Below are positions 5,027-63,455 of a stretch of DNA of 64,000 bases, in pieces. Numbering within the stretch: position 1 is the first letter of the stretch; the number at the start of each line of letters is the position of its first letter. The stretch covers positions 909,206 through 973,205 of the forward strand of contig NZ_JACHDZ010000001.1 in assembly GCF_014201375.1 (NCBI RefSeq), in the 5' to 3' direction. The notes below the pieces were generated by a model. The model was not told where the DNA came from. It ran no database searches and saw nothing but the letters and a program-made list of their open reading frames with translations. A program made the translations under genes and the position numbers. The DNA is from Tunturiibacter empetritectus. Lineage in GTDB: Bacteria; Acidobacteriota; Terriglobia; Terriglobales; Acidobacteriaceae.

Positions 5027-5424
5027 GGGTTGTGGCAAAACGTGGTGAAAAGCGCTGGTAAGAACGTGGTGGCATCGTGGTGTTTTGGTGGTGAAAGCGT
5101 GGTGTTTGGCAGCGTCTTTTTGCGTTGCTAAAAAAGTGCCACTTTTTTGGATTTATTTTCGTTTTCACTCCCTTTTGGGAGAGAGGATCTTTCTTTCAGT
5201 TTTGCGAGCTGAATCTTTCCTTCTTTTTTGGAGTTGAATCCTGGGTGGCCCGGCTTCGCTTTAGGTCGGGCTTTGCTGTTTGTGCCCGCTTTTTCGCGGG
5301 GTGTGCCTATGTCGCTGTGAGGGGCCTGGATCTCTGTACGGGTGGACTCGCTGTTTTGGATGGGGTGAAGCGTCGGGGGCGGGGGCGTCTTGGCTTCGGT
5401 GGGGGAATCGCGTAGAAGGGAAAG
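5027..5424. other. Intergenic region holding a GTGGTG element
   Basis: A 398-base gap. The first part (about 5033-5165) is a GTGGTG-rich repeat, listed separately. The rest is T- and G-rich with no credible protein; one frame open at 5125-5415 has an unnatural composition. The nnr ribosome binding site (AAGGG) closes the region. Confidence 0.6.
5033..5165 (+). repeat. GTGGTG-rich dispersed element (family H), copy 1
   Basis: Directly after the PBP stop there are closely spaced GTGGTG blocks, including CGTGGTGAAAA, GTGGTGTTTTGGTGGTGAA and CGTGGTGTTTGGC, then a T-rich end TTTTTTGGATTTATTTT. The same series of blocks, in the same order and orientation, occurs at 61563-61720 after another stop codon. 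Both copies therefore lie at the 3' end of a + strand gene. Confidence 0.75.
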
Positions 5425-7041
5425 ATGAAGATTCTTACAGCGACGGAGATGCAGGCGGTGGATCGGTGGACTGCAGAAGAGTTTGGGGTTTCGCTGGAGA
5501 GGTTGATGGAGGCGGCCGGGGGTGCGGTGGGGCAGTTCTGTCTGCGGCAGCATCCGGCGGCGATGAGGGTGGTGGCGTTGTGTGGGAAAGGGAACAACGG
5601 CGGGGATGGTTTTGTTGCGGCGCGTGTGCTGGCGCAGGCGGGATGTCTGGTTCGTGTGGTGCTGCTGGGGCTGGCGGATGAGGTGAAGGGAGAGGCAGCT
5701 ACGGCGCTTAGGAGGCTTCGGGAGGAGTACTCGTCTGTTGTGGTGGAGGAGGTGGTGGATGAGGCTGGGCTGGCGGCTTGCGCGGGTGCGGTGAACGAGG
5801 CGGAGTTGCTGCTGGACGCTGTGGTGGGGACGGGATTCAAGCCGCCGCTGCGTGGGCTTGCGGTTTTGTTGCGGGAGATGGTGGAGAAGTTGGCGACGCC
5901 GGTGGTGGCGGTGGATCTGCCTTCGGGGTGGGATGCGAATTCGATGGAGCAGACGGCGGAGGGGTCGTTTCGGGCGGATGCTGTGGTGACGTTTACGGCG
6001 CCGAAGATCGCGCATGTGTTTGGGCATCTGACGCGCAATGAGAGGACCGGCGGAGTGTTTGGGCCGGTGGTGGTTGCGGGGATCGGATCGCCGGAGGATG
6101 CCGTGGTTTCGGCGAGTGGGTTTACGTGGGCGGGTTCGTCGAAGACGGTGGCGGAGAGGCCGCGGGATGTGAACTCGAATAAGGGCAGGTTCGGGCATGT
6201 GCTGGTGGTGGGGGGGAGCTACGGGAAGGCTGGGGCTCCGGCGATGGCGTCGCTGGCGTGTCTGCGAAGTGGGGCTGGGCTGGTGACGGCTGCGGTGCCG
6301 AAGAGCATTCTGGATACGGTGACTCGGATTGCGCCGGAGTTGATGATGGTGCCGCTGGCGGAGGGGACCAAGGGTGCGGTTTCGTTCAAGAATCTGGATG
6401 GGGCGAAGCTGGATGCGCTGGTGACGAAGATCTCGGTGGTGGCCGTTGGGCCGGGGCTGTCGACCGAAGGGGATGCTCCGGCGTTTGCGCGGCAGATCGT
6501 GGAGAAGACGATGGTGCCGGTGGTGATCGACGCGGATGCGTTGAATGCTTTCGAGGGAAAGACGGATCTGCTGAATGGTGAGGGGCGGGTGATGGTGCTG
6601 ACGCCGCATCCGGGGGAGATGGCGCGGCTGGCGGGGATGACGGTGAAAGAGGTGGAGGCGGATCGGGTTGGGCTGGCGCGGAGGTTTGCGACGCAGCATA
6701 AGCTGACGCTGGTGCTGAAGGGGTGGCGAACGCTGATTGCGCATCCGGATGGCTCGATTGCGGTGAATACGAGTGGGAATCCGGCGATGGCGAAGGGTGG
6801 GAGCGGGGATATTCTGACGGGGATTGTGGCGGCGATGCTGGCGCAGTTTCCCGGCGATGTGGCTCGTGCGGTGGAGGCGGCGGTTTATCTGCATGGGCTG
6901 GCGGCGGACTTTGCGGCGCATGCGATGGACGAGCATACGGTACTTGCAACCGATACGGTTACACACCTTTCGGATGCGTTTCGCTATCGGGTGACGGATG
7001 CGGATGGGCTGGTGTGGATCTGTGGGTTGCGGTGGCGTTGA
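5425..7041 (+). CDS. nnr: Bifunctional NAD(P)H-hydrate epimerase / ADP-dependent dehydratase
   Basis: Metabolite-repair enzyme that epimerises and dehydrates the damaged hydrates NADHX and NADPHX back to NAD(P)H. The 538-residue protein has the fused layout. An N-terminal YjeF-type epimerase domain (about 1-215) carries GKGNNGGDGF at 54-63. A C-terminal ribokinase-like dehydratase domain (about 235-525) shows GHVLVVGGSYGKAGAP and the nucleotide-binding signature AKGGSGDILTGIVAA. AAGGG lies just before the ATG. In many bacteria nnr is followed directly by tsaE; here tsaE lies about 3 kb downstream, beyond two unrelated genes. Confidence 0.95.
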   Translation: MKILTATEMQAVDRWTAEEFGVSLERLMEAAGGAVGQFCLRQHPAAMRVVALCGKGNNGGDGFVAARVLAQAGCLVRVVLLGLADEVKGEAATALRRLREEYSSVVVEEVVDEAGLAACAGAVNEAELLLDAVVGTGFKPPLRGLAVLLREMVEKLATPVVAVDLPSGWDANSMEQTAEGSFRADAVVTFTAPKIAHVFGHLTRNERTGGVFGPVVVAGIGSPEDAVVSASGFTWAGSSKTVAERPRDVNSNKGRFGHVLVVGGSYGKAGAPAMASLACLRSGAGLVTAAVPKSILDTVTRIAPELMMVPLAEGTKGAVSFKNLDGAKLDALVTKISVVAVGPGLSTEGDAPAFARQIVEKTMVPVVIDADALNAFEGKTDLLNGEGRVMVLTPHPGEMARLAGMTVKEVEADRVGLARRFATQHKLTLVLKGWRTLIAHPDGSIAVNTSGNPAMAKGGSGDILTGIVAAMLAQFPGDVARAVEAAVYLHGLAADFAAHAMDEHTVLATDTVTHLSDAFRYRVTDADGLVWICGLRWR

Positions 7042-17342: not shown

Positions 17343-17440
17343 ACAGGGTGTAGGGTGCAGGGCTTAGGGTGTAGGCCACTACAACCAACACTACCATCGT
17401 ACGAACAGCCTACACCTTACACCCTGAGCCCTACACCCTG
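17343..17440. repeat. GGGTGTAGG-type inverted repeat
   Basis: A 32-base left arm made of TAGGGTG/GTGTAGG units (CAGGGTGTAGGGTGCAGGG, about 17345-17376) matches the reverse complement of the right arm (about 17409-17440) at 27 of 32 positions, with a loop of about 32 bases. It fills the gap between the polyprenyl synthase and the membrane-protein gene, both minus strand, and overlaps the last codons of the latter. It could act as a transcript-end hairpin or be a mobile repeat remnant. Confidence 0.7.
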
Positions 17441-19257
17441 CGGTGGAGGGTGATGAGGAGAGTGGCGAGGGCCAGGAGGGAGATGGTGTTGCCGAGGATT
17501 TGGTCTGGGGTGCGGGCGTAGGTGATTGCGATGAGGGAGGGACCGGCGGGGATGGGGATGGCGATGAGGCCGTCGTCGCGCTGGTCGCGCGTGGTGATGA
17601 GGGAACCGTTGTCGGTGATGCGCCAGGCGGGGTAGTCGCGGAGGTTGAGGATGAGGTCTTCGGGGATGGGTGGGTTGAGCGTGAGGGGGGTGGGCGCGGG
17701 TGCGGGTTGGGTTTGGGTGGGGGCTTTGGCGTTGGAGTCTTCCGAGAGCCAGTAGGGTGGGTCGCTTTGGGCGAGGGAGTCGTTGTCGGCGGTGGTGGGG
17801 GTGTACTCGTCGGTGGGTTCGGTGCCGCGGTTGGAGTGGAAGAGAGCTTCGCGGGCGGTGGGGGTATCCTCTTCGTCGCATGGTTGGTGGAAGAGGGTGT
17901 AGGCCGGGTAGGTGAGAGCTGCGGCGAGGGCGATGGTGAGTGCGGTGCTGGCTGTGGATTTGAGGTTCAGGCGAGTGATTGCCAGGGCGATGGCGAGGCT
18001 CATGATGGTGGCAAGGATCGCCAGGAGACGCCAGGGGAATTGGAGGAAGGCTAGCTCGGGGGCGTGGTTCCAGAAGATGGTGGTGAGTGGGGTTAGGAGG
18101 AGGGCGATGGCTGTGGTGAGGATGGCTAGCGAGAAGAGGAGACTGATGGTGGTCGAAGAGCTTCGATCCCACCCTTCGCAAGAACGCGAAGGATGGGGCA
18201 CCGGGGCTTTTCTGGTCAGGTAGAGAGCTGTCAGGGCTATGACCGTTGCCACGAGGAGGATGAGGGCGAGGATCGATGCGGTGTGGAGGACTTGATCGTG
18301 GGGGGCGTCGCCGGTGTGGTGGAAGAGGAAGTTGTCCTGGATGCGCATGTTGGGGATGATGGCCATGGCGATCTGGACGTAGCGGCGCTCGTAGGCGGCG
18401 GGGAGGAGGTAGAAGGCGGCGAGGGCGAGGCCGAGGGTGGTGCCGGCGATGGTGTTGATGGTTAGGCTGAGTGGTGTTTGGGATGGGATTGGGGTGGGGT
18501 CGGCGTGGGCGGGAGCGGTCGGGCTTGCGCCCGATGCCCACACATCAAGGTCGATGTATGGGGCACCCGGATTTGTGGTGGTCCGTGATCTCCACGATGT
18601 CTGAGATGGATCGGATGGGTGGATTGGGGCTGGAGATGAGGTAGCCCGATTTGTGGCTAGTCGGATGATGGTGAGGAGGGCGAGGGCATAGCAGCTCATG
18701 ACGGCGGCGGGGGCGTTGGTGAGCCAGAGGAGCGCTACGGGGATGGCGATGCGGGGGATGGTGACGCGCTGGCTCAGGATGGCGTGGAGGAGGAGCGGGA
18801 TGAAGGCGGCGGCGAGGAGTTCGGCGTAGGCGGTGCGCTCGAAGGCAGTGAAGAGCATGTAGGGGTTCACCGTGTAGAGGATCGCGGCGAGGAGAGCGGC
18901 GGTGGGTGGGGTGAATTCTTGGGCGAGGCGGTGGAGCGCGAGGCCGCTGGCGGTGAGGGCTAGCCAGGTGTAGAGGATCGGCGTTGCGGTTATTGGGAAG
19001 AGGAGGGTGAGGATCGCGCCGAGTGTCCAGGAGAGTGGCGGGTAGAAGACGAAGCGGGGTTCGCCGGCGTTGTAGGCCGCGGTATAGGCCCAGTGCGGGT
19101 GGAGGTTGCCGTGGGTGAACTGGCGAGCGGCCTCCATCCAGTTGAGGAGATGGAAGTCGAAGTCGTGGCCGCAGGAGCAGCCGTGGAGGAGGAGAGGGAG
19201 GATGGCGATGCAGGCGGCTAGTGGGATCAGGAGGTAGGGGAGCCGGTCGCGCTGCAT
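17431..19257 (-). CDS. PTPS-related membrane protein carrying two in-frame repeats
   Basis: A polytopic membrane protein of about 608 residues with the pattern of the 6-pyruvoyl-tetrahydropterin-synthase-related membrane family: first helix, CGHDFDFHLLNWMEAARQ, a loop GNLHPHWAYTAAYNAGEP and FVFYPPLSW. The family is GT-C-like in layout and its function is unproven. About ten hydrophobic segments follow. Two inter-helix loops contain peptides that are translations of dispersed repeats: NPGAPYIDLDVWASGASPTA (DNA 18508-18582) and RKAPVPHPSRSCEGWDRS (DNA 18165-18212). The ATG at 19257 fits the first helix; a TTG at 19296 with AGGA upstream is the alternative. Confidence 0.8.
   Translation of the reverse strand: MQRDRLPYLLIPLAACIAILPLLLHGCSCGHDFDFHLLNWMEAARQFTHGNLHPHWAYTAAYNAGEPRFVFYPPLSWTLGAILTLLFPITATPILYTWLALTASGLALHRLAQEFTPPTAALLAAILYTVNPYMLFTAFERTAYAELLAAAFIPLLLHAILSQRVTIPRIAIPVALLWLTNAPAAVMSCYALALLTIIRLATNRATSSPAPIHPSDPSQTSWRSRTTTNPGAPYIDLDVWASGASPTAPAHADPTPIPSQTPLSLTINTIAGTTLGLALAAFYLLPAAYERRYVQIAMAIIPNMRIQDNFLFHHTGDAPHDQVLHTASILALILLVATVIALTALYLTRKAPVPHPSRSCEGWDRSSSTTISLLFSLAILTTAIALLLTPLTTIFWNHAPELAFLQFPWRLLAILATIMSLAIALAITRLNLKSTASTALTIALAAALTYPAYTLFHQPCDEEDTPTAREALFHSNRGTEPTDEYTPTTADNDSLAQSDPPYWLSEDSNAKAPTQTQPAPAPTPLTLNPPIPEDLILNLRDYPAWRITDNGSLITTRDQRDDGLIAIPIPAGPSLIAITYARTPDQILGNTISLLALATLLITLHRRV
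18165..18212 (+). repeat. TGGGGCACC element, family B, copy 1 (inside a gene)
   Basis: CCCACCCTTCGC (from 18168) and GCGAAGGATGGGG form an imperfect palindrome, followed by CACCGGGGCTTT. The same arrangement occurs at 31389-31441. It is in frame within the membrane-protein gene on the opposite strand. Confidence 0.8.
18508..18582 (+). repeat. TGGGGCACC element, family A, copy 1 (inside a gene)
   Basis: Begins GAGCGGTCGGGCTTGCGCCC, continues GATGCCCACACATC, then GATGTATGGGGCACCCGG and ATTTGTGGTGG. GCCCACACATC and GATGTATGGGGC are palindrome arms and CGGGCTTGCGCCCG a second hairpin. Copies with near-identical sequence lie at 58843-58906 (between genes) and 62581-62650 (inside the cysteine desulfurase gene). 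Confidence 0.9.
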
Positions 19258-19306
19258 GTGTTGAGGGTATCGCAGTGGGGTTGCGATTGCTCTCAACTGC
19301 GCTTGT

Positions 19307-19402
19307 CCTGCCGGAGGGGCCCACTTCGCGTGGGGCGGTCACTTCGTGACTTGTGTACCGGTCTTGGTTGGGCGGGTGTCTGGGTCCTCCCGTTGGTCGG
19401 AG
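19307..19402 (+). repeat. Dispersed repeat, family G, copy 1
   Basis: Reads CCTGCCGGA, GCCCACTTCGCGTGG, GGCGGTCACTTCGTGACTTG, TGTACC and ends CTCCCGTTGGTCGGA. A second copy of the same length and orientation is at 55736-55832. GTCACTTCGTGAC is a perfect internal palindrome. It separates the membrane-protein gene from the EmrB-type gene. Confidence 0.8.
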
Positions 19403-30008: not shown

Positions 30009-32162
30009 TCAGCGATTGGAGAGGATGAATTTGCCGCCCTCTGCCGCGAGGAGATGAACGGGGGCAAAGCGTGCGAGGTCAGCGGCGCGTTGCTTGCTGA
30101 AGGTGAGCAGGAAGATGCGTTGGCGGCCGGCCCAGGCTTGGCGGAGTCCGTCGTCGGTGCCGAAGATGGGGGGAGCGTCGGGCCAGAAGGAGCCGTACCA
30201 GGGGCCGTAGATGCGTCCGTTGACGAGGCCTGCCTGTTGGCCGGTGTAGAAGAGGAGAGAGGAGCCGGAGGAGAGCCAGCCGTCGATGATGACGCGGTCG
30301 CCGGGGTGTAGTTGCTGTTTGACGGTGAGGGCAAGATTCTTCGATCCGAGGATGGGGTAGAAGCGGACGAGGCCCTCGTGGGCGGCGAGGAGGGAGACGG
30401 TCATGGCGGTGGCCAGGACGAGATTTGCGGCGTAGGTGAAGGAGCGGCGGCGCAGGAGGTAGCTGCCGAGGCCAACGCCGAGCATGCTGAGGGCAACGGC
30501 GGTGAGGGGTCCGCGGAAGAGTCCCATGGCGTCTCCGGTGAGGTCGAAGAGGTGGCCGAGGGAGAGGTTGTAGAAGTCGGGGTTGGAGTTGAGCAGAGAT
30601 GCGAGGTCGGTGCCGGGGGCGGGGTGCGGTGCAGTGAGGGCGAAGTATCCGCAGACCATCGCGATGGCGGTGGAGAGGGGGAAGAGGAGGCAGAGATGCC
30701 AGCGGAGGGCGCTGCAGACTGCTTCGAGTTTGGCGGAGGTGAGACTTTGAGAGTGGTCGGCGCGAGCGAGGAGACCGCCGGCCATAAGGCAGAGAGCGGG
30801 GATGGCGGGGATCGAGTAGTACTCCTGACGGCTGGAGAGGGAGAAGAAGCCCATGACGAGGAGGCTCCAGAGAAGAAGGCAGAGCGATGCTTCGTGCTCG
30901 CGTGCGCGGGTGAGGGTGTTTGTGGCGATGCTGGAGGTGTGGCCGCGGAGGGTTCGGATGTGGTCGGCGATGGCTCCGGGGAGGAAGACGGTCCAGGGCA
31001 TGATCCAGATGGCGAGATAGATCCAGAAGACGAGGACGGGGGTTTGGCCATAGTCGTGGGGGATGCGTTTGGAGAGAAAGCGGGCGATGTGCTCGTTGTA
31101 GAGATAGAACCAGGCCCAGCCTGCTTTGGCGGGGAGACCGAGATCCGGGGGCATGGAGATGGCTGGGTTTCGGAGGGCGGCGAGGATGTGCCAGGGGGCG
31201 GCTATGGCCAGGAAGACCAAGGTGCCGGGGATGAGGTGGAGTTTCAGGAGGAAGTGGAGTTGTTTGGTGATGGCGAGGTAGAAGAGGACGAAGGCGATGG
31301 GGAAGACCAGTCCTATGAGTCCTTTGGTCAGGACGTTTAAAGCCATGACTGCGGCGAAGGCGATGCAGGGGAGGAGAGCGGAGTAGCTTACACTCCCACC
31401 CTTCGCGAAGTGCGCGAAGGATGGGGCACCCGGGCTTTGGTGGCTGGGGGAGGAGAGCGGATCGCGCTGCCGCGCGATTACCCACTCATCGCGATGAGAC
31501 TGCGATGAATGGGGCACCAGGTTTTGGGGCTCGATCTGAGATGTCCGGCTTTGTGGCTCGATTCCGAATGCCCGGTTTGGTGGCGTGGTTTGAGAGTGCA
31601 GGCGGTCGAGGGCTATGAGGAAGAGGTGGACGGCGAGGGTCATCCAGAGAGCGATGAGGATGTCCGGGATGTAGAAGCGGGTGTAGAGGTAGGGGCCGAT
31701 GCTGGTGGCGAGGGCGATGGCGGCGTAGAAGCCTCCGCGATCGGGTTTTTCGGCTGGAGAGACTGTTGCGAAGAGACGAATGCCGAGGGCGTAAACAGCG
31801 AGTAGAAGCGCGAGGACTGCAAGAGCGAGAGGGAGGCGGGCGGCCCAGTCGTGAATGCCGAAGAGGCGCATGGAGCCGGCGGCCATCCAGTACATGAGGG
31901 GAGGCTTGTCGAAGAAGCGAATGCCGTCGATGGTGGGGGTGACGTAGTCGTGACGCTGGAGCATCTCGCGGGCGATCTCGATGTAGATGGAGTCGACGTC
32001 GTCGAGGAGGCCGGGGGTGAAGAGGCCGCCGATCTGGAGGATGAGCCAGAGAAAGAAGATGACAGCGAGGGAGACGGGATTCCAAGGGCGGCGCGATGTG
32101 GCGTTTTGGGGAGAGGTCTCGTGCACTTGGGTTTCTTCGTCGAGTTTGAGCTGGTTCTGCAT
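30009..32162 (-). CDS. ArnT/PMT-type glycosyltransferase with in-frame repeats
   Basis: A polytopic GT-C glycosyltransferase of 717 residues. The acidic motif of the first periplasmic loop is LLDDVDSIYIEIAREM (52-67), followed by the amphipathic-loop pattern FFDKPPLMYWM (83-93), as in undecaprenyl-phosphate-sugar transferases that modify lipid A. About 11 hydrophobic segments are visible. Residues about 193-260, between the helix FYIPDILIALWMTLAVHLFL and the next helix, are a polar stretch that translates dispersed repeats (families C and B), including SPGAPSFAHFAKGGS. A paralogue lies directly upstream on the same strand, so the two probably form an operon. The acceptor is unknown. Confidence 0.85.
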   Translation of the reverse strand: MQNQLKLDEETQVHETSPQNATSRRPWNPVSLAVIFFLWLILQIGGLFTPGLLDDVDSIYIEIAREMLQRHDYVTPTIDGIRFFDKPPLMYWMAAGSMRLFGIHDWAARLPLALAVLALLLAVYALGIRLFATVSPAEKPDRGGFYAAIALATSIGPYLYTRFYIPDILIALWMTLAVHLFLIALDRLHSQTTPPNRAFGIEPQSRTSQIEPQNLVPHSSQSHRDEWVIARQRDPLSSPSHQSPGAPSFAHFAKGGSVSYSALLPCIAFAAVMALNVLTKGLIGLVFPIAFVLFYLAITKQLHFLLKLHLIPGTLVFLAIAAPWHILAALRNPAISMPPDLGLPAKAGWAWFYLYNEHIARFLSKRIPHDYGQTPVLVFWIYLAIWIMPWTVFLPGAIADHIRTLRGHTSSIATNTLTRAREHEASLCLLLWSLLVMGFFSLSSRQEYYSIPAIPALCLMAGGLLARADHSQSLTSAKLEAVCSALRWHLCLLFPLSTAIAMVCGYFALTAPHPAPGTDLASLLNSNPDFYNLSLGHLFDLTGDAMGLFRGPLTAVALSMLGVGLGSYLLRRRSFTYAANLVLATAMTVSLLAAHEGLVRFYPILGSKNLALTVKQQLHPGDRVIIDGWLSSGSSLLFYTGQQAGLVNGRIYGPWYGSFWPDAPPIFGTDDGLRQAWAGRQRIFLLTFSKQRAADLARFAPVHLLAAEGGKFILSNR
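31389..31441 (+). repeat. TGGGGCACC element, family B, copy 2 (inside a gene)
   Basis: CCCACCCTTCGCG (from 31395) pairs imperfectly with GCGAAGGATGGGG, then CACCCGGGCTTTGGTGG. It is equivalent to 18165-18212 and encodes SPGAPSFAHFAKGG on the minus strand within the glycosyltransferase gene. Confidence 0.85.
31479..31586 (+). repeat. TGGGGCACC element, family C (inside a gene)
   Basis: CCCACTCATCGC (31481-31492) pairs with GCGATGAATGGGG, then CACCAGGTTTTGG. A degenerate tandem stretch with GGCTCGAT units continues to about 31586. It has the same architecture as families A and B (CCCA, stem, stem, TGGGGCACC), with a different stem. It lies 50 bases from the family B copy, so the loop of this gene holds two elements. 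Confidence 0.75.
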
Positions 32163-55735: not shown

Positions 55736-55832
55736 CCTGCCGGATGAGCCCACTGCGCGTGGCGCGGTCACTTCGTGACTTGTATACCCTGCTTTGGCGG
55801 GACTGGCGATATTCGTGCTCCCGTTGGTCGGA
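55736..55832 (+). repeat. Dispersed repeat, family G, copy 2
   Basis: CCTGCCGGA, GCCCACTGCGCGTGG, GCGGTCACTTCGTGACTTG, TATACC and CTCCCGTTGGTCGGA. It has the same order, length and orientation as 19307-19402. It lies between the pseudokinase and the convergent DUF4239 gene. Confidence 0.8.
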
Positions 55833-56748: not shown

Positions 56749-58677
56749 TTATTCGGTGGAGTCTTTTTCTTTCTTTTCGGCAGGGATGGGTTCGGATTTG
56801 GCCAGGGGTTTGGTGATTTCGTCGAGGTAGGCGGGGGTGCCGTCCACACGGATTAGTTGCGGGTAGCGGGCGCCGTCGTGGTAGTCGATGTCGGCGGTGG
56901 TGACGAAGGCGTCGCTCTGGAGGATGAAGTGGATGGGCTCGGTTGTTCCCTTGGCCTGCTTGATTGCGGTCTTGAGGGCATCGGCGGAGTAGACGTTGCC
57001 GTTGACGGCGACGATTTTTTGTCCGGGGAAGAGTTTGGCTTTGTCGGCGGGGCTGTTCCAGCGGACGTCGGCGATGTTGCCTTCGGCGGAGACGCGGAGC
57101 CCGAGGGAGTACCAGACGTTGACGGAGCTGCCGCGACGGCTGCCGGAGTTGGCGAGGGTGCGTTCGGACTTCGAGGGTTCGTCGGTGTAGACGAGCTTGT
57201 AACCGCCGCGTTCGATGCCGGCGAGGTCGGCGTGTGGGTTTATGTTGTCTATGCGCTCGTGGATGAAGGTGGCCCAGTCGTAGGGGAGGACCTGGTTGAG
57301 ATCGGCGATGAGCTCGTCGCGGTTGTAGGTGACGATGAGGGGGCCGGTGTTGCCGCCTTCGCCGAGGAAGAGATGCAGGAAGTCGGTGAGGGATTTTTTG
57401 TTGTCGGTCTTCTGGCGAATGAGGGTGTCGGCGTCGAGCCAGAAGAGCTCGCCCTCCTGGTAGTAGTCCTGGCCGCGCTTCCAGTTGGACCAGGCGGGGT
57501 TGCCGCCGCGGAGGATGCTGGCGGCGATGGCGGTGTCTTCGGTGGGACGCCACTCGCGGCCGGGTTTGTAGTCAAGCTGGGCGGCGGAGAGGGCGAGCAT
57601 GTCGCGGTACTGCTCCTGCGATTTGAGGCCGGAGCGGGCGGCGAGGACGTTGCCGAGGTAGTGGGTCATGCCTTCGTAGACCCAGAGGAGCGAGCCCTGC
57701 TGCATCTTCTCGAAGTCGTCCTGATAGAGGTTGAAGGGGCGGCGGTACTTGCCGTTCCAGGAGTGGGTGAACTCGTGGGAGAGGAGGTCGGATTCGGCGA
57801 GTTGATGGCTGGGGTCGGAAAAGCCTTTTTCGCCTACGCCGTTGTCGGAGGACTGGCCGTGCTCGAGGCCTTCGCCACCGGCTACGTCGGAGAGGGTGAG
57901 GAGGAAGTGGTAGACGTCGTAGTGGCGGGAGTCGTAGGCGGCTCCGGTCTCGCGGACGAGGTTGTTGAGTTCGGCGAGGAGGGCAGGGCGGAGGTTGGAG
58001 TCTTCGGGCGAGTCGGAGACTACGTCGATGTAGTGCTTGGGGGTGACCTCGGGGGCGAGGGCGAACTCGTGGAAGTACTGGCCTGTGATGACGGGGGAGT
58101 CTTCGAGTTGTTCGACGGTGGTGGGGGCGTAGTGGGTGAGACCGCCCTTTGGATTTTGCGGATCGTAGCCGTCGGTTGGGGTGAGGGCGCTGCCGATGCC
58201 CCACCCTGCGGGAACTTTGACCGAGGGCTGGATGGCGATGTCTTTTACGGGGGTTTTCGCGGGGTAGAGGAGGAGTTTTTCCCATTCCAGGACGGCTAGC
58301 TTGTCGCTGACGCGGGCGGTGACGATGCAGTCGAGATGAGCGTGCAGGGTGGTGACGCCGGCGGGGACGGTGACGTGGAACTCGTAGAGGTCTTCGTCGT
58401 CGCGGCGCCAGGGGAGGACTTTGCCGTTAGCGGTGAAGACGACTCCGGTGATGTCATCGACGGGGCCGGTGGGGCGGTGGTTGCCGGGGATCCACTTGGG
58501 AGTGGTGAGCGCGACGGGGCCGGGCTGGACGGGGATGTCGACTTCGGCGTGGTAGAGCTTGCGCGGAGCCTCGGAGAGGTCGGCGGTGATCCGGATGGGG
58601 GTCTGCTGGGCTTGCAGGAGGCCAGGGGTTCCGAGGGTGAGCAGAGCTAGAGGCAGGAGGGTGCGGCGGACGATCAT
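56749..58677 (-). CDS. Exported M61-family glycyl aminopeptidase with PDZ domain
   Basis: A 642-residue zinc peptidase with a signal peptide (MIVRRTLLPLALLTLGTPGLLQA). An N-terminal beta domain (about 28-200) precedes the catalytic motif HEFTHSWNGKYRRP with His301, Glu302 and His305. The third ligand region is WVYEGMTHYLG with Glu335. A PDZ domain (about 515-600) includes VRWNSPADKAKLFPGQKIVAVNG. The layout equals that of M61 glycyl aminopeptidases. The C-terminus is acidic and Lys/Glu-rich (PIPAEKKEKDSTE). GAGAGGA lies upstream of the ATG. A terminator follows the gene. Confidence 0.93.
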   Translation of the reverse strand: MIVRRTLLPLALLTLGTPGLLQAQQTPIRITADLSEAPRKLYHAEVDIPVQPGPVALTTPKWIPGNHRPTGPVDDITGVVFTANGKVLPWRRDDEDLYEFHVTVPAGVTTLHAHLDCIVTARVSDKLAVLEWEKLLLYPAKTPVKDIAIQPSVKVPAGWGIGSALTPTDGYDPQNPKGGLTHYAPTTVEQLEDSPVITGQYFHEFALAPEVTPKHYIDVVSDSPEDSNLRPALLAELNNLVRETGAAYDSRHYDVYHFLLTLSDVAGGEGLEHGQSSDNGVGEKGFSDPSHQLAESDLLSHEFTHSWNGKYRRPFNLYQDDFEKMQQGSLLWVYEGMTHYLGNVLAARSGLKSQEQYRDMLALSAAQLDYKPGREWRPTEDTAIAASILRGGNPAWSNWKRGQDYYQEGELFWLDADTLIRQKTDNKKSLTDFLHLFLGEGGNTGPLIVTYNRDELIADLNQVLPYDWATFIHERIDNINPHADLAGIERGGYKLVYTDEPSKSERTLANSGSRRGSSVNVWYSLGLRVSAEGNIADVRWNSPADKAKLFPGQKIVAVNGNVYSADALKTAIKQAKGTTEPIHFILQSDAFVTTADIDYHDGARYPQLIRVDGTPAYLDEITKPLAKSEPIPAEKKEKDSTE

Positions 58678-58842
58678 GAACGGGAATTTCCTCTCGAAGT
58701 GAGGCGAAGATTTTAGATATTAGAAGGATAGACGATGTTGAGGCTGGAGAAGACGCCAAAAGCGGGTGGGTTGCGGTTGGAATGTCTCTGAGGCGGTCGA
58801 GGAGGCTCCGAGGTGGGTTGGGCTGTCGGCGGAGAGGAGATG

Positions 58843-58906
58843 GGCGGGAGCGGTCGGGCTTGCGCCCGATGCCCACATATCAAGGTCGATGTGTGGGGCA
58901 CCCGGC
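58843..58906 (+). repeat. TGGGGCACC element, family A, copy 2 (intergenic)
   Basis: GGGCGGGAGCGGTCGGGCTT, then GCGCCCGATGCCCACATATC and GATGTGTGGGGCACCCGG. It lies in the 267-base gap between the glutathione peroxidase and M61 genes. Translated on the minus strand it still gives PGAPHIDLDMWASGASPTAP, the peptide carried inside two genes, so the element itself is open in that frame. Confidence 0.9.
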
Positions 58907-58944
58907 AACAGCAGATCAATCCTCGTTCGGACTGGAGTTTGAGG

Positions 58945-59511
58945 CTAGGAGTTGAGGGCGGATTCGATGGCGGCGACGATGGTGGGATCGTCGGGGAGGA
59001 CTTCGGGCGAGAAGCGGGCGGCGACTTGGCCGTTGCGGTCGATGAGGAACTTTTCGAAGTTCCACAGGATGCCGGGTTCGGGGTTGGTGGTGGTGCCGTG
59101 CTGCTGGAGGAAGCCGTTGAGGTTTTCGCGGAAGGCTTCGCGGCCGGGGCTGGTGGCCCTGGGCTGGGCGGCGATGAGGGATTGGTAGAGGGGATGGGTA
59201 TCAGGGCCGGTAACGGTGACTTTGGAGAACATGGGGAAGTCGACGCCGAAGGTGGAGCGGCAGAAGGTCTGGATGTCCTCGTTGGAGCCTGGCTCCTGGC
59301 CGCCGAAGTCGTTGGCCGGGAAGCCGCAGACGACGAGGCCGGAGTCTTTGAAGCGGGCGTAGATCTTTTCGAGGGCGTCGTATTGGGGGGTGAGACCGCA
59401 CTTGGAGGCGACATTGACGATGAGCAGGACTTTGCCGCGATAGTCGGCGAGGGACGCTCCTTCGCCGGTGATTCTGTGCACGGGGATGTCGTAGAGAGCG
59501 GCTGCGGACAT
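58945..59511 (-). CDS. Glutathione peroxidase-family thiol peroxidase
   Basis: A 188-residue peroxidase that reduces hydroperoxides. The catalytic residues are Cys38 in NVASKCGLTPQY, Gln72 in NDFGGQEPGS and Trp150 in LWNFEKFLID. The peroxidatic residue is Cys, not selenocysteine, so the real reductant is probably thioredoxin, as for most bacterial members. Between 110 and 148 there is a segment longer than the minimum fold (EAFRENLNGFLQQHGTTTNP). AGGAG lies seven bases before the ATG. Confidence 0.93.
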   Translation of the reverse strand: MSAAALYDIPVHRITGEGASLADYRGKVLLIVNVASKCGLTPQYDALEKIYARFKDSGLVVCGFPANDFGGQEPGSNEDIQTFCRSTFGVDFPMFSKVTVTGPDTHPLYQSLIAAQPRATSPGREAFRENLNGFLQQHGTTTNPEPGILWNFEKFLIDRNGQVAARFSPEVLPDDPTIVAAIESALNS

Positions 59512-62138: not shown

Positions 62139-63455
62139 TTAGACGGCATGTGTCGTTATGCGGGAATGAGGGTGGGTGGGGGACTTGTGCCAGGTGGGGC
62201 TGAGGTCGCGGAGGCGGGCTACGGCGGCGGGGATTAGGGTAAGGGCGTGGTCGATCTCTTCGGCGGTCGTGAGGCGCGAGAGGGAGAAGCGGATGCTGGC
62301 TCGGGCGCGGGCGGGAGAGAGGCCCATGGCGGTGAGGACGTGGGAGGGTTCGGTGGCGCCGGACTGGCAGGCGGAGCCTCCGCTGACGGAGAGGCCCTTG
62401 AGGTCGAGGGCGATGACGAGGGCTTCGGCTTCGATGTGATCGAAGTAGAGGCTGGTGGTGTTGGAGACGCGGGGGGCTCCGGCTCCGTTGACGCCGCACT
62501 CTTCTATTTGGGAGAGGATGCCTTGTTCGAGGCGGTCGCGTAGGGCTTCGAGGTGAGCTGGGGTGTCGGCTGTTTGGGAGAGAGCGGTCGGGCTTGCGCC
62601 CGATGCCCACACATCAGACGCGATGTGTGGGGCACCCGGATTTGTGGTGGTGGTGGGAGTTTCTATGAGCCATTGCTGGGCTAGCTCGGCGGCTTTGCCG
62701 AGCGCGACGATGCCGGCTACGTTTTCGGTTCCGGCGCGGCGCTGGCGCTCGTGGGAGCCGCCGTGGAGCATGGGGGCGAGACGGACGCTGCGGCGCACGA
62801 AGAGGGCGCCGATGCCCTTGGGGGCGTAGATCTTGTGGCCGGAGAGGGTGAGTAGGTCGACGTCCTTGAGCGGGCCTTTGGGGCTGAGGTCGAGGGGGAG
62901 ACGGCCTACGACCTGAACAGCGTCGGTGTGGAAGAGCGCGCCTGCGGCATGGGCGATGGCGGCCAGCGTGGCGATGGGCTGGATAACGCCGGTCTCATTG
63001 TTGGCGAACATGACGCTGACAAGCTTTGTGTTGGGGCGGATGGCGGCCACTAAGGCTGCGGGTTCGATGATGCCTTGTGGGGTGCTCGGGAGGAACGTGA
63101 CTTCTACGTTCTTCTTGGCCAGGGATTCGGCGGCGCGGAGGATGGCGTCGTGCTCGATGCTGGTGGTGATGAGGTGAGCGGGTTCGCCGGTGAGCTTTGG
63201 GCTTCCGAGGGTGCCGAAGAGGGCGAGGTTGTCGCTCTCGGTGCCGCCTGAGGTGAAGACGATCTCGGAGGTGCGGCAGTGGAGGAGGCGGGCGATGCTG
63301 TCGCGGGCGTGGTCGACGGCGGCGCGGGCGAACTGGCCCTGTTGATGGATGGAGCTGGCGTTGCCGTAGTGCTCGAGGAAGAAGGGACGCATGGCCTCGA
63401 AGACCTCGGGGAGGAGGGGTGTGGTGGCGTTGGCGTCCAGGTAGATTCGGCGCAT
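62139..63455 (-). CDS. Cysteine desulfurase (NifS/IscS type) with in-frame repeat
   Basis: PLP enzyme that takes sulfur from cysteine for Fe-S clusters and tRNA thiolation. The 438-residue protein has YLDANATTPL at 5-14, SGGTESDN (69-76), the PLP lysine Lys208 in LSGHKIYAPKG, and the catalytic Cys363 in SGGSACQSGATEPSHVL. RAGTENVAGIVALGKAAEL (240-258) is standard. Residues about 266-298 (ETPTTTTNPGAPHIASDVWA and following) have no place in the family and are the translation of a family A repeat at 62581-62650. The family length is about 385-405, so the excess equals the insert. All catalytic parts are intact, so the enzyme is likely functional. Confidence 0.95.
   Translation of the reverse strand: MRRIYLDANATTPLLPEVFEAMRPFFLEHYGNASSIHQQGQFARAAVDHARDSIARLLHCRTSEIVFTSGGTESDNLALFGTLGSPKLTGEPAHLITTSIEHDAILRAAESLAKKNVEVTFLPSTPQGIIEPAALVAAIRPNTKLVSVMFANNETGVIQPIATLAAIAHAAGALFHTDAVQVVGRLPLDLSPKGPLKDVDLLTLSGHKIYAPKGIGALFVRRSVRLAPMLHGGSHERQRRAGTENVAGIVALGKAAELAQQWLIETPTTTTNPGAPHIASDVWASGASPTALSQTADTPAHLEALRDRLEQGILSQIEECGVNGAGAPRVSNTTSLYFDHIEAEALVIALDLKGLSVSGGSACQSGATEPSHVLTAMGLSPARARASIRFSLSRLTTAEEIDHALTLIPAAVARLRDLSPTWHKSPTHPHSRITTHAV
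62581..62650 (+). repeat. TGGGGCACC element, family A, copy 3 (inside the cysteine desulfurase gene)
   Basis: GAGCGGTCGGGCTTGCGCCC, GATGCCCACACATC, GATGTGTGGGGCACCCGG and ATTTGTGGTGGTGG. Nearly identical to 18508-18582, including the flanking ATTTGTGGTGG. It reads on the minus strand as NPGAPHIASDVWASGASPTA. Confidence 0.92.

Follow-up and report, generated by a model that had tools for sequence, protein, structure and literature searches.

The desulfurase gene and its extra loop

The window, i.e. the whole 64,000-nucleotide stretch of Tunturiibacter empetritectus DNA that was analysed, contains a gene for a cysteine desulfurase, within which lies the core of a dispersed palindromic element (Table 1). 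The protein matches PF00266, which describes the class V aminotransferase fold, and the closest solved folds to its AlphaFold2 model (made with 74 sequences; mean pLDDT 89.1, pTM 0.87) are those of the desulfurase in the ISC complex 8rme and of E. coli IscS (1p3w). The PLP lysine, residue 208, and the catalytic cysteine, residue 363, are both invariant in a 74-row alignment. The best NCBIfam model for the protein, TIGR03402, gives 473 bits, below its cut-off of 530.75, with the match falling in two stretches; the inserted element may be a cause of this low score.

The 66-nt core comprises a left hairpin, the main hairpin, a CACCCGG foot and the start of a tail and, read on the minus strand, corresponds to desulfurase residues 270-292. 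The original prediction, that residues 266-298 are a repeat-coded peptide, has proved correct in substance, in that the peptide is real and the copies near 18.5 and 58.8 kb align well with it. Its extent was drawn too widely: the noted span of 62561-62670 corresponds to residues 262-299, whereas the repeat-coded part is residues 270-292, with the rest of the extra loop being flanking or tail-derived sequence. The reading frame is kept by the insert, as had been proposed, and the copy at 18.5 kb shares the frame used in the desulfurase. The insert was also expected to lie between two helices, and in the model helices are predicted at residues 246-264 and 299-316, bracketing the extra loop. The idea that it forms a loop agrees with the structure model, in which residues 268-284 and 286-293 have pLDDT values below 50 and are predicted to be disordered. 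By sequence alignment, the insert is positioned between residues 262 and 266 of E. coli IscS.

Table 1. Desulfurase gene, its extra loop and the copies of the element (positions are those of the window)
Feature	Position	Strand	Basis or remark
Cysteine desulfurase gene (NifS/IscS type, 438 aa)	62139..63455	-	ORF call, family match, fold match
Palindromic element core in desulfurase gene	62582..62647	+	repeat comparison, folding, genome search
Extra loop relative to orthologues	62565..62666	-	approximately residues 264-297; mostly predicted disordered
A-type copy in membrane-protein gene 17431-19296(-)	18513..18578	+	frame as in desulfurase, TTTNPGAPYIDLDVWASGASPTAP
D-type copy, core variant TGGGGCACC, in gene 17431-19296(-)	18150..18204, ends approximate	+	another frame, VPHPSRSCEGWD
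D-type copy in PMT_2 gene 30009-32162(-)	31394..31432	+	PGAP frame
Second copy in PMT_2 gene, core variant	31461..31518, ends approximate	+	another frame, LVPHSSQSHRDEWV
A-type copy between genes 56749-58677 and 58945-59511	58848..58913	+	repeat comparison

Copies and structure of the element

Taking 18490-18582 as the reference, the repeat family extends over 93 nt and includes 62559-62651 (86%) and 58825-58917 (74%). There are six copies in the window, all on the plus strand, two of which are core variants and five of which lie inside minus-strand ORFs. The gene at 17431-19296(-) has a weak PTPS_related match, with 19.1 bits against a cut-off of 26.4. A separate pair of repeats, 83% identical over 66 nt, is present in the window at 19307-19372 and 55736-55801.

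Searching the genome of origin with the 66-mer gave 22 places at E<=1, with 7 besides the query itself at E<0.001. The exact core TGGGGCACCCG occurs at 46 sites in 4.83 Mb, whereas the backwards pattern, used as a control, occurs at none; the distribution is thus not due to chance. Of 41 genomes from the order, 6 contain the A-type 18-mer GATGTGTGGGGCACCCGG with up to one mismatch; these six are among the 15 that belong to the genus, and at the same stringency the 18-mer is absent from the other 26. At one locus (L090, G000 C5:211563-211945), three exact-core sites in the same orientation lie within approximately 380 bp.

The element consists of an optional left hairpin, a main hairpin of the form CCCA...TGGGG, interrupted by a mismatch or bulge, and a CACCCG foot bearing a loose TTTGTGG tail; 1 of 200 shuffled sequences folds at least as well (z -2.93). 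Stem types vary among copies, yet they pair in 221 of 225 cells compared with a shuffle maximum of 173, a count that leans towards pairing, the best register having been picked for each of the 45 parsed copies (of 46 sites, L093 being left out). With the relative G040, pairing in 47 of 55 cells (11 parsed of 13 copies, L209 and L214 being left out) equals the shuffle maximum of 47, and there is therefore no excess in that genome. These counts do not draw on the MAFFT alignment made of 44 hairpins, in which short-stem copies were placed wrongly.

Recurrent change at the same loop in other desulfurases

Loop length was defined as the number of residues between the GKAAELA and LRDRL anchors of the desulfurase. 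The spacing is 57 residues in the T. empetritectus enzyme and 24-27 residues in 42 of 44 parsed rows from outside the phylum (parsed from 68 loci, L112-L179, which are outside Acidobacteriota or not so assigned), with the other two rows, L127 and L174, being mis-parsed, unrelated segments. Orthologues that lack the segment, as the original prediction anticipated, are thus found outside the phylum, and the homologues P0011 and P0015, which are 90% identical to the desulfurase, also have a clean short loop.

In the genus, an orthologous locus was located in 57 of 60 genomes, and the 55 parsed loci fall into 38 with short, 5 with intermediate and 12 with long loops (28-32, 36-39 and >=49 residues, respectively, counted with 2 extra residues). 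The element is recognisable by eye in the DNA of nine of the 12 long rows (L023, L024, L025, L026, L027, L032, L035, L036 and L041) and doubtful in L028; none was recognised by eye in the DNA of L030 and L034. On a desulfurase tree built without the loop, which counts changes and not the direction of gain or loss, the nine element-bearing rows require 4 changes, all forced by well-supported branches, and all 12 long rows require 7. The presence of an element in the desulfurase loop has therefore changed at least 4 times in the genus. Nor is the insertion a one-off event: relatives show repeated variation of this loop, and elements decorate many other genes as well. Five pairs of filled and empty sites were aligned and are too diverged at the junction for a target-site duplication, one of the traits of MITEs, to be read.

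Two element types, A-type and D-type, occur at the site, and L032 has both together with an apparent tandem expansion of the tail. Among the best 120 of 8000 scored homologues, 117 were parsed, of which 54 have short loops, 61 long loops and 2 loops in between. Long loops occur in Edaphobacter lichenicola M8UP22, M8UP30 and X5P2 and Granulicella sp. S190, as well as in Tunturiibacter lichenicola and T. gelidoferens (P0018, P0019); the loop of T. psychrotolerans (P0047, P0055) is short.

A small number of ancestral insertions that were later lost several times over, perhaps with dispersed copies acting as donors for gene conversion, might also have produced this pattern in place of recurrent insertion. 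Such a history would explain why the order of D-type followed by A-type is common to L032, L036, P0004 and P0010, and is compatible with a tree that has no direction. It sits less well with the filled loops of L041 and L027, which stand beside the short loops of L046 and of L039/L045 (the pairing of L027 with L045 is weakly supported, the three-row group of L027, L039 and L045 well supported), or with the D-type element alone in L025 and the different, fully paired stem in L027. We regard ancestral insertion as rather unlikely, albeit as a serious competitor to recurrent insertion.

Orientation relative to GC skew

The window (1-64000) has a very strong GC skew, from +0.26 to +0.35 in 8-kb steps. 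Seven genes, lying in either direction, have skews of +0.28 to +0.48, and one spacer has +0.35; because the sign is the same whichever way the genes run, the skew follows the strand rather than gene direction. The G-rich strand is generally the leading strand. In the genome of origin, the motif is on the G-rich strand in 44 of 44 loci (some of them overlapping, for 46 sites) and in three relatives at 130 of 134 sites (G041, 55/57; G014, 30/30; G031, 45/47), with 2 of the 32 sites of G014 and 1 of the 48 of G031 not fetched. The four exceptions are L281, L338 and L340, which are not elements, and L295, a real element at a local skew of -0.02; inspection of 13 chosen loci identified L281, L338, L317 and L340 as having the exact core and no element hairpin, and all four were kept in the 134. 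For G040, 12 of 13 sites are on the G-rich strand, with the remaining one at a skew of -0.01, the 13 being hand-picked isolated sites of 67 and including two unparsed as elements. Judged by position, the element thus has a near-strict orientation relative to GC skew, whatever the direction of the gene. In position lists, which carry no local skew, the strands are in blocks with exceptions in G054, G023 and G059 and look mixed in G032 and G059; in G058, and partly in G059, the control pattern nearly equals the core in frequency or is at least not negligible.

Neighbourhood of RAYT genes

The genome of origin has two PF01797 matches, i.e. a full RAYT (Y1 transposase) gene at C1:442300-442626 and a truncated one at 443952-444116. 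Five 156-nt repeats that hold the element surround these hits, one overlapping the start of the full RAYT gene and others flanking the truncated copy on both sides. At L099, positions 5116-6077 contain an array of B-type units around the truncated RAYT, which is 96% identical to the full RAYT over 227 nt. Across the ten genomes searched for both core sites and RAYT genes, an exact-core site lies within 1 kb of 5 of 16 RAYT hits, compared with approximately 0.29 hits expected from site density (Poisson tail 1.3e-5), and such sites are on both sides of 4 (2/2 hits in G040, 1/2 in G041 and 1/2 in G059); the other 11 of the 16 have no exact-core site within 1 kb. A RAYT match is present in 49 of 60 genomes of the genus; none to PF01797 was found in G014 (32 sites) or G032 (10 sites), and none in G002 and G028, which carry desulfurase inserts. 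By position, exact-core elements adjoin some RAYT genes.

The mover could be other than RAYT, or copies could spread by recombination, with the RAYT neighbourhood reflecting a preference of insertion. The elements of G014 and G032, and the majority of RAYT hits standing apart from core sites, are in keeping with that alternative; the excess of core sites near the other five hits, mostly on both sides, argues against it, and on balance we consider a different mover doubtful.

Other decorated genes and reading frames

With coding frames called from the flanks, 7 of the 46 sites in the genome of origin and 30 of the 134 in the relatives lie inside genes, three of the latter 30 (L281, L338 and L317) not being elements. 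Decorated genes with family support encode HolA, PMT_2, an ABC transporter (which we take to be of the ABC-F type) and TrpE in the genome of origin, and ArgS, PheT, ValS, RsmB, XerC/D, MnmG, Nei/Fpg and RecG in the relatives. The in-gene site L075, on the other strand, was assigned to the XerC/D-type site solely from the pattern of its peptide. Long Arg-rich or otherwise odd ORFs over the elements at L057, L059, L068, L076 and L090 were judged by eye to be spurious and do not enter the gene counts. ArgS (with one model), PheT, ValS and MnmG score above curated cut-offs, and the best models of the desulfurase, XerC/D, RecG, RsmB and Nei/Fpg give scores below theirs; the insert may be one cause of such low scores, beside partial frames or divergence.

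Nine of 10 relatives yielded a HolA; of these nine, four are empty at the site (EFEKLLLYVEGKNRVTLGDVE), one is nearly so (L228) and four have other inserts. TrpE varies at one site in 10 relatives. Possible repeat peptides, ISTGGIALAAAAEQPA and AKDDNKKGKF, occur in the same loops, at L061 (holA of the genome of origin) and L233/L234 (trpE of G031/G014). Judging by these other peptides in the holA and trpE loops, the repeats that enter genes may belong to more than one family.

Among 180 exact-core sites, 50-64% are open in any given one of the six frames. Of 10 lagging-strand genes, 8 use the PGAP frame (P 0.008), or 8 of 9 (P 0.002) when the near-N-terminal L328 is left out; these P values allow for open frames and apply to four genomes, with sites grouped by gene by hand and post hoc. 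A preference for the PGAP frame in lagging-strand genes is, at this stage, suggestive only. The core-variant copies at 18194 and 31510 in the genome of origin are in a frame other than PGAP, and the genes of the opposite strand are divided between two frames, with three genes each.

Interpretation

We interpret the desulfurase segment as a REP-like palindromic element that inserted in frame into a permissive surface loop and was tolerated there, a reading to which we assign a probability of roughly 0.8. The element belongs to a dispersed family whose hairpin covaries, some relatives carry it and others do not, and the frame is kept. As to mechanism, RAYT would transfer the element in single-stranded form to the lagging-strand template, and its polarity would thereby be fixed. 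Copies in important genes would then survive selection only when in a stop-free frame and in a tolerant, disordered loop, where the surviving insert would be read as a predicted Pro/Gly/Ala-rich linker, NPGAPHIxSDVWASGASPTA, for which we propose no catalytic role. Inserts may later decay, expand or be lost; these states are seen, and their order in time is conjectural. It may be, more generally, that RAYT-driven palindromes of fixed polarity, coupled with tolerated translation, recurrently generate disordered linkers in the loops of core enzymes, a tentative proposal whose chances we put at somewhat less than even.

It could be argued that the repeat-coded peptide has been domesticated, i.e. 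that it is now functional, perhaps serving as an arm for docking or oligomerisation, and that selection maintains it, given the frequency of long loops among the closest homologues (61/117 parsed, from the best 120 of 8000) and the similarity of the A-type peptide in many of those with long loops. The peptide is absent, however, from the close relatives P0011 and P0015, L038 is empty although nested with L026 in the desulfurase tree, different, decayed or expanded elements fill the same loop, and the loop is disordered in the model; we therefore consider domestication improbable. A low-complexity linker of the ordinary kind, similar to the repeats only by chance, would suit the Pro, Ala and Thr richness expected from a C-rich coding strand, but is highly improbable in view of the nucleotide palindrome and its close dispersed copies, as is an assembly error, given that assemblies of other strains, recorded under separate names, also contain inserts; chance similarity, artefact and an ancient conserved segment were rejected on the basis of the close copies, the 46 versus 0 sites and the short loops of orthologues.

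Tolerated insertion of a REP-like element has wider relevance. These mostly single, near-strictly oriented copies, some of them next to RAYT genes, provide a natural test of whether REPs spread by replication-coupled, single-strand dispersal, which inverted REP pairs hide. The empty, single, double and decayed states of the loop among relatives form a natural series for studying tolerance to foreign peptides. On the practical side, family models of decorated proteins can score under curated cut-offs.

Comparison with known systems

The element has canonical REP traits in that it is a dispersed hairpin palindrome, copies of which flank some RAYT genes (in the genome of origin, G040, G041 and G059). 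Inverted pairs, a trait of REPINs and BIMEs, are absent from L099 3000-6300 at >=14 nt. No GT[AG]G tetranucleotide was seen by eye at the 5' hairpin foot of the copies inspected, the conserved foot being CACCCG/CGGGTG, and for this reason we call the element REP-like rather than a canonical REP.

Rickettsia palindromic elements are in-frame palindromes in the genes of likely functional proteins. The element described here resembles them in its in-frame presence in protein genes and differs in lineage and in its link to RAYT, the comparison being one of descriptions. Rickettsia, the precedent first cited for the desulfurase insert, stands as an example; such insertions are known well beyond it, with the parts of PMC3733652 used here reporting intragenic REPs in many bacteria, including Opitutus terrae, Thauera, Xanthomonas and Stenotrophomonas.

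According to the same parts of that paper, intragenic GTAG/CGTC REP clusters encode 43-82 aa, and in two species of Xanthomonas the insertions in recB lie at nearly the same place (PMC3733652). The element shares with those REPs its nature as a small palindrome in ORFs and its targets, which include tRNA synthetase and DNA repair genes. As far as that material goes, it differs in that we noticed no GTAG/CGTC tag at the foot, and in its Acidobacteriota host, its single orientation to GC skew and its recurrence at one loop over 55 genus rows (PMC3733652). The terms "leading strand" and "lagging" are absent from the text of PMC3733652.

The arrangement of palindromes on either side of a Y1 HUH gene recalls the TnpAREP/RAYT REPtrons, as partly covered here from PMC6006769 and PMC8266576, in contrast to which our copies point the same way, instead of being arranged as inverted pairs, and have a CACCCG foot (CGGGTG on the other strand). 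The same excerpts report frame-keeping REP insertions in subclass 2.4 RAYT genes (PMC6006769), motifs without GT[AG]G for RAYT classes 2.6 and 3 (PMC6006769, PMC8266576) and use of the lagging-strand template by IS200/IS605 elements (PMC6006769). The Pseudomonas REPINs, in the portion of PMC3116915 drawn on, are likewise RAYT-associated and non-autonomous, with single-strand mobilisation proposed for them, but they are inverted doublets, whereas the units here are mostly single and on the same strand.

With respect to the phylum, the acidobacterium Koribacter is mentioned in part of PMC3733652 as having TIRYT genes and a single repeat family, and part of PMC3174227 describes many short repeats under 50-100 nt in Solibacter, using "palindromic" twice, for CRISPRs. 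Among the titles and abstract starts listed by literature searches, with subscription journals mostly outside their reach, none dealt with insertions of this kind in genes of Acidobacteriota. For other phyla, REPs lying in frame within genes have already been published; the new points here are the lineage, the link to RAYT of an element whose foot lacks GT[AG]G, its strict orientation and its recurrence at one loop.
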